This document shows, in pieces, positions 20,437-34,796 of a DNA stretch of 38,604 nucleotides. The notes beneath the pieces were generated by a model that was not told the DNA's origin, searched no databases, and saw nothing but the letters and a program-made list of their open reading frames with translations. Numbering within the stretch: the stretch's first letter is position 1; each line of letters starts with the position of its first letter. The stretch comes from Myxococcales bacterium (GTDB lineage Bacteria; Myxococcota_A; Polyangia; Palsa-1104; SHYY01): positions 63,802 to 102,405 of the forward strand of contig JAHFDT010000001.1 of the NCBI GenBank assembly GCA_023248875.1. The letters run 5' to 3'. A program made the position numbers and the translations under genes.

Positions 20437-20615
20437 GGGGGACCTTCCCGTCCCCCACTCCCTCGGGCGAAGCCCTCGGGAGCCTCCCTACCGCGCGCTA
20501 CCCGCGCGGCAAGGCGAAAACTATGTATGTGGGGACCTTCCCGTCCCCCGCTCCTTCGGGCGAAGCCCTCGGGAGCCTCCCTACCGCGCGCTACCCGTGC
20601 GGTAAGGCAAAAACT
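20437..20615. repeat. Two tandem copies (period 93 bp) of a triple-hairpin GC-rich repeat in the nrdJ 5' region
   Basis: GGGGACCTTCCCGTCCCCC.CTCC.TCGGGCGAAGCCCTCGGGAGCCTCCCTACCGCGCGCTACCCG.GCGG.AAGGC.AAAACT twice. Confidence 0.9.
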
Positions 20616-24307: not shown

Positions 24308-24347
24308 GTTCTTTTCTTGGCCGGCAAGGCGTGTGATAATCCCGCAC

Positions 24348-25619
24348 ATGATCATGCGTGTGCACAACCTCCTCGGGCTCGGTGTGTTGCTGGTGGGCTG
24401 CGGTAATGTGGGCGTGGGAGGGGGCATGGCGGATCTGGCCATGGCGCCCGCGTCCGATATGGCGAGCCTTTCTGGCGAGGACATGGCGACCAGCCCGGGT
24501 GCGGACCTGGCGACTCCAGGGGGGGATATGGCTGGCGCTTCCGCCGATATGGCGGTCACCGGTCTCCAACCCGGCTCGCCCTGGCCGATGCAGGGGCGCG
24601 ATGTCCGACACCAGGCGCTCAGCCCTTCGAAGGGACCCCAGGCCGCGCAGGTCAAATGGAGCTATCTGACCGGCGGTGTGATCCACTCCTCGCCGACGAT
24701 TTCCGCCGATGGCACCGTCTTCGTGGGCTCCGCCGATAAGAAAGTCTATGCCCTCGATGGCCAGAGCGGGAACAAGGTCTGGTCGTTTCCCACGCTGGGG
24801 GAGGTGAACGCGGCGGCGGCGCTGGGAGTGGATGGCACCGTCTACATCGGTTCGACAGATGCGATCGTCTATGCGCTCAACCCCCAGACGGGCACCAAGA
24901 AATGGTCCTACACGACCTCCGGCATCGTCGTGACCGCGCCGGCCCTCGGGACGGATGGGACGGTCTACATCGCCGGCAACGACACCTACTATGCGCTCGA
25001 TGGTCAGACGGGCACCAAGAAGTGGTCCTATCCCACGCCCGATATTGTGGCCTCTTCACCGGCGATTGGCCCCGACGGAACCGTGTACGGCGCCTCCGGC
25101 TCCACCGTCTACGCGATCAATTCTAAAACGGGCACCAAGAAGTGGTCCTATACGACCACGGAATGGATCACCAGTTCACCGACGGTGGGCGACAATGGCA
25201 TGGTCTACATCGGCAGCGGCGACAAGTACGTCTACGCGCTCGACGGGCAGACGGGGACGAAGAAGTGGTCGTATCTGACCGCCTACTACGTCGAGAGTTC
25301 GCCCGCGGTCGGGGCGGATGGCACCCTCTTCGTGGGTTCCGATGACAAGTATGTCTATGCGCTCAATGGGCAGACCGGGGCCGTGAAGTGGTCCTATCTG
25401 ACGGGTGGCTACGTCGGATCATCGCCCGCGATCGGCAGCGACGGGCTCCTCTACGTGGGTTCGAGCGATAACAAGATCTACGCCTTCGATGGCCAGACGG
25501 GCGCGAAGAAGTGGTCCTATTCTACGGCGGGCTACGTGACCAGCTCGGCAGCGATCGGTGCGAATGGTGTGATCTACATCGGCTCGAATGACAAGAAGGT
25601 CTACGCGATCGGACCTTGA
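24348..25619 (+). CDS. Lipoprotein with DMA/DLA-repeat linker and eight PQQ-type beta-propeller repeats
   Basis: Lipobox LLVGC; DLAMAPASDMASLSGEDMATSPGADLATPGGDMAGASADMA; eight WSYxT...SSPAIGxDGTVYVGSxDKxVYALDGQTGTKK repeats. Confidence 0.9.
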   Translation: MIMRVHNLLGLGVLLVGCGNVGVGGGMADLAMAPASDMASLSGEDMATSPGADLATPGGDMAGASADMAVTGLQPGSPWPMQGRDVRHQALSPSKGPQAAQVKWSYLTGGVIHSSPTISADGTVFVGSADKKVYALDGQSGNKVWSFPTLGEVNAAAALGVDGTVYIGSTDAIVYALNPQTGTKKWSYTTSGIVVTAPALGTDGTVYIAGNDTYYALDGQTGTKKWSYPTPDIVASSPAIGPDGTVYGASGSTVYAINSKTGTKKWSYTTTEWITSSPTVGDNGMVYIGSGDKYVYALDGQTGTKKWSYLTAYYVESSPAVGADGTLFVGSDDKYVYALNGQTGAVKWSYLTGGYVGSSPAIGSDGLLYVGSSDNKIYAFDGQTGAKKWSYSTAGYVTSSAAIGANGVIYIGSNDKKVYAIGP

Positions 25620-26324: not shown

Positions 26325-26942
26325 TCATACTTGCACGCTCGCCCGCAGCCGCCCGATCAGCTCGTCGATGGCCCCGCGCCGCAGCTTCCAACTCGCCCGA
26401 TTGACCACGACTTGAGCCGACACCTCGAGGATCGTGGCCACCTCGCGCAGCTGGTTCTGCCGGAGGGTCTCACCGCTGGCCACGAGATCGACGATGCAGT
26501 CGGCGAGACCGGTGAGCGGCGCCAGTTCGATCGAGCCATAGAGCTTGATCACCTCGGCCACGAGTCCGTGCTCTTCGAGGTAGCGCCGCGTGAGGTTCGG
26601 GAACTTGGTGGCAATGCGCAGGTGGAGCGGGTCCGCTCGCCGAGCCGCCGGTTCAGCCAGCGCCAGCCGGCAGCGTCCGATGCCGAGGTCGAGCGGCCGA
26701 TAGAGGTCGCGGCCCTGCTCATCGAGGATATCCCGGCCGGCAATGCCGAGATCGGCGGCCCCATGTTCGACAAAGGTGGGCACGTCGCTATCGCGCACGA
26801 CGTAGATGCGCAGCCCATCGAGATCGTGCACGAGGCGCCGCGAGCCCTTGAGCCCCGCCAAAGCGATGCCGGCACGGGCAAACAGGGCCACCGCCTCGTC
26901 GAGCAGGCGCCCTTTGGGCAGCGCGAGAGCGAGCGGGGTCAT
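26325..26942 (-). CDS. hisG: ATP phosphoribosyltransferase, short (HisG_S) form
   Basis: LALPKGRLLDEAVALF, RDSDVPTFVEHGAADLGIAGRD, ATKFPNLTRRYLEE, IKLYGSIELAPLTGLADCIVDLVASGETLRQN; about 205 aa without C-terminal regulatory domain. Confidence 0.95.
   Translation of the reverse strand: MTPLALALPKGRLLDEAVALFARAGIALAGLKGSRRLVHDLDGLRIYVVRDSDVPTFVEHGAADLGIAGRDILDEQGRDLYRPLDLGIGRCRLALAEPAARRADPLHLRIATKFPNLTRRYLEEHGLVAEVIKLYGSIELAPLTGLADCIVDLVASGETLRQNQLREVATILEVSAQVVVNRASWKLRRGAIDELIGRLRASVQV
26917..26941. repeat. Direct repeat copy 1 (25 bp) within the 5' end of hisG
   Basis: GGCAGCGCGAGAGCGAGCGGGGTCA, identical to 27790-27814. Confidence 0.97.
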
Positions 26943-26952
26943 ACGCGCGTAC

Positions 26953-27147
26953 CTACCCTCCGGGTTTTTCCTTCACCGGCCATCGCGGCAGAGCGCCGGT
27001 GCGGTGGCAAAGTGCGATCATCTCCTCGAGCCAGGCCAACCGTTGGGCGGGGGTGGCGGCCAGTGCCAGGGTCAGTTGGCGGCGCTTCGCGTCCCATCCA
27101 CTGTCCCATTCTCCGCTCGTTGAATCCGTGGGTCGCTCGTCATCCAT
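26953..27147 (-). CDS. Small protein (64 aa), partner of upstream nucleotidyltransferase
   Basis: MDDERPTDSTSGEWDSGWDAKRRQLTLALAATPAQRLAWLEEMIALCHRTGALPRWPVKEKPGG; 8-nt overlap with nucleotidyltransferase 3' end. Confidence 0.7.
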   Translation of the reverse strand: MDDERPTDSTSGEWDSGWDAKRRQLTLALAATPAQRLAWLEEMIALCHRTGALPRWPVKEKPGG

Positions 27148-27646
27148 TGTCGAGCTCCCTGCGCTGTACGATCGCCTCCAACGCTTCGATATCCAGCAGA
27201 TCCTGCGGCCGCCCGGCGAGCCGCTTCAGCTCGATCAAGTCTGGAATCGACGCAACCCGTACCGAGGTGTGCAAAAGCGCGATCCACTGTGCACCGGACC
27301 ATAAGCGTTCGAAGTCGATGGGATGCTCGACGAACAAGTCGACTACCCGCATCGGGTTCGCCGGATCCCACATCGAGAACACCCGCAGCCCCTTGTTCTG
27401 GATCCAGCTGGCGCGGATGATAGGGTCCGCGAACTCGATGGCGTTGACCGGCGCGCGGGGCCGAAAGCCCAGGTTTTCGAGGACGGCCAGCACCTTGCAG
27501 GCCTCCACGGGCCGGAGGTCGACGACGAGGTCGACATCTGCCGTAAGACGCGCATACCCGTGCAGCACCGTGGCAAGCCCTCCGACGACGACGTAGCGAG
27601 CCTCGGCGCGATTAAGCGCTTCGAAGATCGGCTCGAAGAGGGACAC
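27140..27646 (-). CDS. Nucleotidyltransferase-fold protein (MNT/AbiEii-like), probable GTG start at 27646
   Basis: YVVVGGLATVLHGYARLTADVDLVVDL = GG...H...R.T.D.D nucleotidyltransferase motif; IPDLIELKRLAGRPQDLLDIEALEAI C-terminus. Confidence 0.85.
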   Translation of the reverse strand: MSLFEPIFEALNRAEARYVVVGGLATVLHGYARLTADVDLVVDLRPVEACKVLAVLENLGFRPRAPVNAIEFADPIIRASWIQNKGLRVFSMWDPANPMRVVDLFVEHPIDFERLWSGAQWIALLHTSVRVASIPDLIELKRLAGRPQDLLDIEALEAIVQRRELDNG

Positions 27647-27652
27647 GATGGC

Positions 27653-27675
27653 AGTATAGTCCGTCCCGACAGGAC
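27653..27675 (-). promoter_or_regulatory. Candidate promoter/operator of the nucleotidyltransferase gene, possibly leaderless
   Basis: Minus strand TATACT (27658-27653) only 6 nt before GTG; dyad GTCC-TGTCG-GGAC (27675-27663) immediately upstream. Confidence 0.4.
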
Positions 27676-27789
27676 ACAAAAGTACCTTGGCCGACAACCG
27701 CGTGTGCGGTCGAATCGATGGCGCGCACCGCTCAGCCTGAAATAGTCTGACGCCAGCGATTCGGGACACAACCACTGCGGTGTACTGTA

Positions 27790-27814
27790 GGCAGCGCGAG
27801 AGCGAGCGGGGTCA
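27790..27814. repeat. Direct repeat copy 2 (25 bp), starting at the bacterioferritin stop codon
   Basis: GGCAGCGCGAGAGCGAGCGGGGTCA identical to 26917-26941. Confidence 0.97.
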
Positions 27815-33432: not shown

Positions 33433-34506
33433 GTGCGAACGCTATCGGTGCTCCTTCTGCTTCCCGCTTCTGGCCTGGCGTTGACCCAGCCGGACCATCA
33501 GCAGATCGCGGTCGAATCGTGTCGGCACGCGGGGCTCCCTAAGCCCTTCTGCCTTTCCGTCGGGCGGGCCGCCTACGACACCGATGCGGAGGCTTGGGAA
33601 GAGCTGAGTGCACATGGCCAGATCCCCGAGGGTGGTGAGGCTTGTAGCGCAGCAGCAGCGACGCAAGGCCGGATCTTCCAGCTCGGCACCTCCATTCACC
33701 TGCAGCTCGGGGCGACCCAGAGTGGCGCCCGAGGGGAGCTGCTGGGCCGCGTCGCTCAGGGGCTGGGTCGTGCATTGCACACGATCGAAGACACCTGCGC
33801 CCACGCCGGGATGCCCAATCCGCAGCACGCCTTTTGGAGCGACTCCGACGTCTGTCAAGGCACTCACTTGAGCCCCGATGTGCAGCCCGAAGCGCTAGGC
33901 TGTGCTCGTCGCGAAACCGATGCGGCGCTGATTCAGTTCGTCGACGCGGTGATCGCAGCGCAGCTGCTTCCCGACGAGCTAGCAGAGGGCGATCCCAGTC
34001 CGTGGACGCGCTACCCCAATTTGGGCGAGGTGTGCGATTTCATGAATTCAGTTCGCGCCTGGGATGGGGTCGATCGGCGCTGGGACAACCAGCGCGTGCT
34101 CCCGGCTCTGGCATCGGCGTTTGGCCGCGGGCTTACGGGCGAAGAGGCGCCACCGCCGATCTGCGCGCAAGGGGACATCACACGTAGGCCGGAGGCACCC
34201 ATTGATGTTGCGGCAAGAGGTCGCATGACCTGTACCATTACCGACGCCTTCTGCCTCGCGGGCGACGCCGCACGCAATGATCTCGCGCCACCCTTCTATA
34301 CGCCCGATGGTTTCGCGGCGCTGCTGTACGGCTGCACGCTGGGCTCACAGCGACCGTGGAGGAGTACGCCGTTGATGGTAGGACTGGCGCTTGTCCTGGT
34401 CGGATGGCGCTTAGCGCGGCGTAGATCCAGCGGCCATCCGGCTGAGCACACCGCGCAGGCGCATCCGCGCGCCGAGGAGAGGTCGAGGAATCGAGGCGGC
34501 TTCTAA
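33433..34506 (+). CDS. Secreted/anchored protein with zinc-dependent phospholipase C/S1-P1-nuclease-like motif (GTG start)
   Basis: Signal peptide; LGRALHTIEDTCAHAGMPNPQHAFW; C-terminal TM TPLMVGLALVLVGWRLARRR; last codons lie inside the 159-bp repeat. Confidence 0.6.
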   Translation: MRTLSVLLLLPASGLALTQPDHQQIAVESCRHAGLPKPFCLSVGRAAYDTDAEAWEELSAHGQIPEGGEACSAAAATQGRIFQLGTSIHLQLGATQSGARGELLGRVAQGLGRALHTIEDTCAHAGMPNPQHAFWSDSDVCQGTHLSPDVQPEALGCARRETDAALIQFVDAVIAAQLLPDELAEGDPSPWTRYPNLGEVCDFMNSVRAWDGVDRRWDNQRVLPALASAFGRGLTGEEAPPPICAQGDITRRPEAPIDVAARGRMTCTITDAFCLAGDAARNDLAPPFYTPDGFAALLYGCTLGSQRPWRSTPLMVGLALVLVGWRLARRRSSGHPAEHTAQAHPRAEERSRNRGGF

Positions 34507-34796
34507 CCTATCCAGCGATAGTCGACCGAGCGGCGGCGAGGGTGTTGTTGTGGCATCGAGAAGGCGATGCGATAGCGTTGGGCGGAGGAGGGTGTTCGCC
34601 GCCGAGGAGTTCCGCAGGCGCATCCGCGCGCCGAGGAGAGGTCGAGGAATCGAGGCGGCTTCTAACCTATCCAGCGATAGTCGACCGAGCGGCGGCGAGG
34701 GTGTTGTTGTGGCATCGAGAAGGCGATGCGATAGCGTTGGGCGGAGGAGGGTGTTCGCCGCTGAGGAGTTCCGCAGGCGCGTCCGCGCACCGAGGA
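34454..34796. repeat. 159-bp direct tandem repeat, two near-identical copies (34454-34612, 34613-34771) plus degenerate partial third copy
   Basis: CGCAGGCGCATCCGCGCGCCGAGGAG...GTTCGCCGC(C/T)GAGGAGTTC; one mismatch seen between copies. Confidence 0.95.

Follow-up and report, generated by a model that had tools for sequence, protein, structure and literature searches.

How chromosomal toxin-antitoxin modules move without a plasmid, phage or transposon to carry them has long been an open question. The closest described parallel comes from restriction-modification genes, for which insertion with long target duplication is known (Nobusato 2000; Furuta 2010, cited in PMC3874152, PMC3031569, PMC1643837). 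As these insertions are presented in the citing papers, they share with the locus described here an unlinked addictive module, a long direct target duplication of variable length, the lack of an IS or transposase and an empty allele in a relative. They differ in that the cargo here is toxin-antitoxin-like, and predicted from its genes to be addictive, and in that the duplication spans 25–30 bp as compared to the order of 100 bp.

For the cargo itself the nearest characterized system is MenAT1 (Rv0078A-Rv0078B) of Mycobacterium tuberculosis. MenT1 attaches CMP to the ends of tRNAs; the 68-aa MenA1 silences it by binding and by inducing the phosphorylation of T39 (PMC10435456, PMC11375011). AbiE (AbiEi-AbiEii, type IV) and HEPN-MNT (type VII), the latter also a two-gene module with a small nucleotidyltransferase (NTase), were considered as well.

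The insert between the ferritin-like gene and hisG

The window, i.e. the whole stretch of DNA that was analysed (38,604 nucleotides), is part of a fragmented draft genome (304 contigs, 88% complete). On its minus strand a ferritin-like (bacterioferritin) gene (28285-27812) is followed by an NTase gene, a 64-aa ORF and hisG, encoding ATP phosphoribosyltransferase (26942-26325); Pfam confirmed the flanking genes as Ferritin and HisG, and hisG also corresponds to TIGR00070. The sequence GGCAGCGCGAGAGCGAGCGGGGTCA occurs in two exact copies, at 26917-26941 and 27790-27814, and forms the direct repeat (25/25 bp) that the initial annotation had reported at this junction. Lengthened by 5 bases the repeat matches at 28/30 positions (26912-26941 and 27785-27814), and the duplication is, as had also been pointed out, longer than the target-site duplications typical of transposases. 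Read on the minus strand, the upstream copy opens with the TGA of the ferritin-like gene and continues into a remnant of a would-be hisG start, and the downstream copy constitutes the actual first codons of hisG. The A of the hisG ATG belongs to the insert, in agreement with the initial annotation. Such a duplication would spare both neighbours, the ferritin-like gene retaining its own stop and hisG its first codons.

The copies are separated by 848 bp (26942-27789, minus strand), in which ORF inspection and family searches found two ORFs only and no IS, transposase or integrase; the claim that the cargo lacks a transposase was thus upheld. Direct reading of the insert ends showed no evident terminal inverted repeat, and a transposon was ruled out on the basis of the missing transposase ORF or family match and the lack of evident inverted ends. 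A non-autonomous transposon making a long target-site duplication would leave the classical signature of an empty site plus a direct repeat, both of which are seen here, but the bare ends, the missing transposase family and a duplication length that varies between the loci described below make it a very improbable source of the insert.

Among 59 genomes searched, the ferritin-like gene adjoins hisG only in G002, which belongs to another genus of the same family, and the hisG empty site rests on this one relative. Here (L004) the ferritin-like stop codon TAG is followed by 5 nt and then by the hisG ATG, with neither the NTase nor the 64-aa ORF between the two genes. This supports the proposal that a compact module of an NTase and a small ORF was inserted with target duplication. 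An empty site had been anticipated in relatives and was found, but not in the anticipated form of a GTGA overlap. An ancestral GTGA overlap with a GTG start of hisG is what joining the window's flanks would give, and the relative lends it no support. The pair would have been either gained in the lineage of the window or cleanly lost in that of G002, and we favour gain because the target is duplicated.

A further scan, for direct repeats spaced by 300-2000 bp, covered 1.08 Mb from the window's genome and one of the same family (the window, G000 and G002). Almost all matches were located inside single proteins or between paralogues, and one intergenic repeat was also set aside. Two clean pairs were found at a spacing of ~860-870 bp, the one in the window and one in G002 (L211, 8226/9088, 30/31 bp), beside which a 49-bp pair 527 bp apart (L227) remained ambiguous. 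Since only two clean pairs with such spacing occur in 1.08 Mb, the repeat in the window is not a chance match. In L211 a VapBC module is bracketed by the duplicated 3' end of its upstream gene, and the orthologue of this gene in the window's genome (L273) has the same ending with no VapBC behind it, which makes L211/L273 a second empty-site case. The scan also bears on the idea that the NTase pair is an old resident of the locus and that the 25-bp match arose by coincidence or gene conversion. GC and GC3 of the NTase resemble those of the neighbouring genes, as expected of a resident; against this stand the empty site in the sole comparable relative, the location of the repeat copies at the ends of the module and a perfect 25-bp identity that at such spacing is close to unique in the 1.08 Mb, and we give long residence almost no weight.

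Elsewhere in the window two other perfect direct repeats are present: one of 149 bp (34454-34602 and 34613-34761, spacing 159 bp), a recent tandem duplication where one ORF ends and the next begins, and one of 42 bp (20463-20504 and 20556-20597, spacing 93 bp). An ORF at 24333-25619 contains seven repeat units of ~41 residues (YALDGQTGTKKWSY...) and resembles a PQQ-type beta-propeller protein.

Taken together, the locus is best explained by a MenT1-like module that was probably acquired horizontally and inserted at the junction of the ferritin-like gene and hisG with a 25-30 bp target duplication, leaving the neighbours intact.

The nucleotidyltransferase and its 64-aa partner

The NTase gene (27140-27649, minus strand, 169 aa) most likely starts at the GTG at 27649, where its homologues begin, and not at 27775; the ORF finder's 211-aa ORF therefore probably begins too far upstream. 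NTase homologues were detected in 176 of 245 genomes of relatives at E < 0.001, many of them distant, and further in Rokubacteria, Nitrospira, Acidobacteria, Gammaproteobacteria and others, with the nearest ones (70-73% identity) in Rokubacteria. The conservation of the NTase/64-aa pair over several phyla, together with these 70-73% identical NTases, argues for horizontal spread of the pair.

A profile of 43 NTases matched M. tuberculosis MenT1 in the PDB at 1e-9. The best Pfam family was DUF6036, matched by all 43 proteins, and 33/43 also matched AbiEii (E < 0.01). This relationship was further supported by the AlphaFold model of the NTase (mean pLDDT 96), for which ranks 1-5 in Foldseek were all MenT1 structures (best E 3.7e-7). 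The protein has the NTase fold with a GG...DxD and distal lysine/aspartate active site, and G24, T36, D38, K142, D150 and D153 are invariant in the 43 homologues, with D40 present in at least 90%. The fold and active-site residues are shared with MenAT1, as the invariant T36, D38 and K142 align with T39, D41 and K137 of MenT1. The NTase is probably a toxin of the MenT1 type, and by analogy with MenT1 it would transfer nucleotides to tRNA acceptor ends.

The pair had initially been described as an AbiEii-MNT-like toxin-antitoxin cassette. Kinship with the AbiEii/MenT superfamily is borne out by the profile and Foldseek results; the MNT/HEPN part of the assignment is not, the closest relative being MenT1. 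HEPN-MNT (type VII) was ruled out because no HEPN family was matched and the NTase is closest to MenT1, not MNT. AbiE proper, to whose AbiEii the homology is distant, was ruled out because no AbiEi/COG5340 winged-helix antitoxin is encoded beside the NTase. Searches of the pair with NCBIfam and PADLOC gave nothing informative, and a literature search on DUF6036 found no paper.

A TATACT, resembling a -10 box, is located 6 nt upstream of the GTG (27653-27658, minus strand), and such TATA-type boxes also lie a few nt before the GTG of the NTase genes in four other loci (L062, L063, L065 and L069). This suggests that the transcript of the module may be leaderless; no full sigma-70 site was found in a consensus scan.

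The 64-aa ORF (ATPAQRLAWLEE...GALPR; 27147-26953, minus strand) overlaps the NTase stop by 8 nt. The small ORF is conserved and overlaps the NTase stop in nearly all close homologues, in one case starting within 1 nt after it, and the partner ORFs are about 50-95 aa long and carry a TPAxRLaWLEE-like motif. AlphaFold predicted two helices, residues 11-29 and 33-50 (pLDDT 80, pTM 0.46), with no match in Foldseek. The 64-aa protein had no sequence match to known antitoxins and no AbiEi-like, HEPN or DNA-binding domain was found in it, nor did a profile of 34 partners match any PDB chain named MenA1. As compared to MenAT1 the partner is similar in size (64 vs. 68 aa) and, as a predicted two-helix protein, may resemble MenA1, an antitoxin of one long and one shorter helix, in its overall build, but the gene order is reversed, with the toxin gene first and the partner second, and no MenA1-like antitoxin is encoded upstream. 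As the partner lies downstream and its profile finds no MenA1 chain, we regard the pair as probably a MenT1-like toxin-antitoxin system with an unrelated partner, the 64-aa ORF being the likely antitoxin. Its two-helix product would bind and silence the NTase, and might do so by stimulating phosphorylation of the conserved threonine in the active site.

One homologous locus differs in its partner. In an Elusimicrobia MAG (L073) the partner ORF, starting 8 nt before the NTase end, runs into a minimal-nucleotidyltransferase-like domain (GSYARGEADKDSDVDLLV), possibly a natural fusion.

Flanking repeats around toxin-antitoxin modules

To find repeats around NTase pairs, we compared the 300 bp preceding each NTase with 120 bp surrounding the end of the small ORF; mismatched loci served as the null. 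These windows were narrowed after a first look; the tests of VapBC, ParDE and controls were made later with windows of the same kind, and the census comprises draft genomes, mostly from one phylum. Six of the 50 NTase pairs had repeats at p < 0.01, vs. 0.5 expected, and five reached scores of at least 16 (the window, L068, L037, L067 and L051), with a weaker case at the end of a zinc-ribbon gene (L038); the remaining 45/50 lacked a strong repeat. In L068 the tail of gltD is repeated directly after the small ORF, over ~80 bp with small deletions and differences at synonymous sites, and behind it lies a degenerate copy of the remainder. The repeat in L037 (24 bp with 3 mismatches) includes the stop codon of the upstream gene. 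Intergenic repeats of uncertain kind, which may be multicopy, flank the pairs in L056 (138 bp) and L067 (127 bp); L067 is counted within the 5/50, and L056 is not, its repeat falling outside the tested window.

In L051 (G159:C303) a 23-bp repeat brackets the pair, with one copy preceding the NTase and the other following the small ORF at 11 nt. It looks like the complementary strand of a tRNA 3' end, and a neighbouring ORF carries a tyrosine-recombinase signature; ARAGORN and Rfam found no complete tRNA or tmRNA in this locus. Some NTase pairs may thus travel in integrase islands. Since the L051 repeat looks tRNA-like near a recombinase-like ORF and that of L067 is intergenic, the repeat-positive NTase pairs form a mixed class, and 3/50 pairs remain if these two are left out.

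Attachment-site cores are usually about 25 bp long. The window's repeats could on this ground be att cores, flanking a stripped island that a tyrosine recombinase integrated in trans, and L051 gives this idea some support. On the other hand, the 848-bp insert has no integrase, the repeats at other loci differ in sequence, have no core in common and reach 151 bp or more, and even L051 lacks a complete tRNA or tmRNA gene. Site-specific integration at the window is for these reasons unlikely.

The scar is not confined to NTase pairs. In the same genome set, 2/29 VapBC and 2/28 ParDE modules were flanked by repeats (83, 76, 43 and 28 bp), and a further mixed module set gave 3/38 (45, about 85 and 151 bp), i.e. 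7/95 for VapBC/ParDE. Over all modules of the three unrelated families the count is 12/145, about one in twelve, or 10/145 without L051 and L067. The repeats range from 23 to 151 bp, with one of 194 bp (L192) in a wider test. One example is a VapBC directly behind a gene resembling ImuB-type DNA polymerases (L123, 14-1990), whose 3' end and stop codon are included in the 83-bp duplication. PIN-domain (VapC-type) genes number more than 20 each in G002 and G008, vs. 3 in the window's genome.

Ordinary ORFs of matched geometry were positive in 7/731 cases, several of them tandem paralogues, and the difference to the modules was significant (Fisher p=5e-6). None of 29 hisG loci was positive; against this control alone the modules did not differ significantly (p=0.10), the control being too small. 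At random positions, where the single-ORF filter was not applied, 62/2858 were positive.

These results answer in part whether the NTase/64-aa pair is associated with duplications elsewhere: five of the 50 pairs are repeat-flanked, but what is copied is often the upstream gene's 3' end and not, as had been expected, the downstream gene's 5' end. The initial suggestion of a cassette that itself regenerates the 5' end of the invaded gene does not hold, as this scar also surrounds VapBC and ParDE modules, which are unrelated, and 45/50 NTase pairs have no strong repeat; an insertion machinery specific to the cassette was ruled out on the ground that VapBC and ParDE share the scar.

As to the joining step, the duplication is consistent with both homology-assisted joining and the filling of staggered ends. 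Ku went undetected in 8/11 genomes holding such loci. A requirement for Ku-dependent joining of staggered ends is disfavoured by this, and we have set it aside; the genomes are drafts, in which absence is not proof. Homologous or homology-assisted recombination is a variant of the explanation we prefer and differs in the joining step: incoming DNA, linear or as a circle, would carry a piece of the target gene beside the module, and a crossover there would leave two copies. The many repeats in gene ends, the gltD repeat of L068 with its deletions and synonymous differences and the failure to detect Ku in most of these genomes are in favour of this. However, the two copies in the window agree at all 25 bp, although differences would be expected in a donor copy that came from a different lineage, and the differences seen elsewhere are explained equally well by decay of a non-functional copy. 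We therefore regard recombination of this kind as possible, though somewhat doubtful, and retain insertion with target duplication as the preferred explanation.

Persistence and spread of unlinked modules

Direct repeats that flank an insert normally permit its clean loss, and losing an addictive module would be penalised. We hypothesize that the scar persists because of this penalty, and that inserts between direct repeats are preferentially retained if their cargo consists of toxin-antitoxin or restriction-modification genes. If this is true, repeat-flanked inserts with an inactive toxin would be lost cleanly and those with an active toxin would be kept.

In a wider sense, we tentatively suggest that unrelated toxin-antitoxin families commonly spread as bare genes that bring neither a transposase nor an integrase. 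A single gene-sparing process would duplicate 20-200 bp of the target, as a rule where an adjacent gene ends, and addiction would then protect an insert that otherwise excises itself; in addition, the NTase/64-aa pair would be a new system of the MenT type whose antitoxin is unrelated.

In the present case both the scar of such a move and an empty allele are observed, and 145 modules of three families served to measure how strongly the scar is enriched. What is new is that in this part of the tree the scar is found at about one in twelve toxin-antitoxin modules from three unrelated families, and that the duplication often takes in the end of an adjacent gene, which is thereby preserved. The pair probably widens the MenT toxin family by a new kind of small partner and a reverse gene order, and the pattern of scars points to a transposase-free spread of toxin-antitoxin modules.
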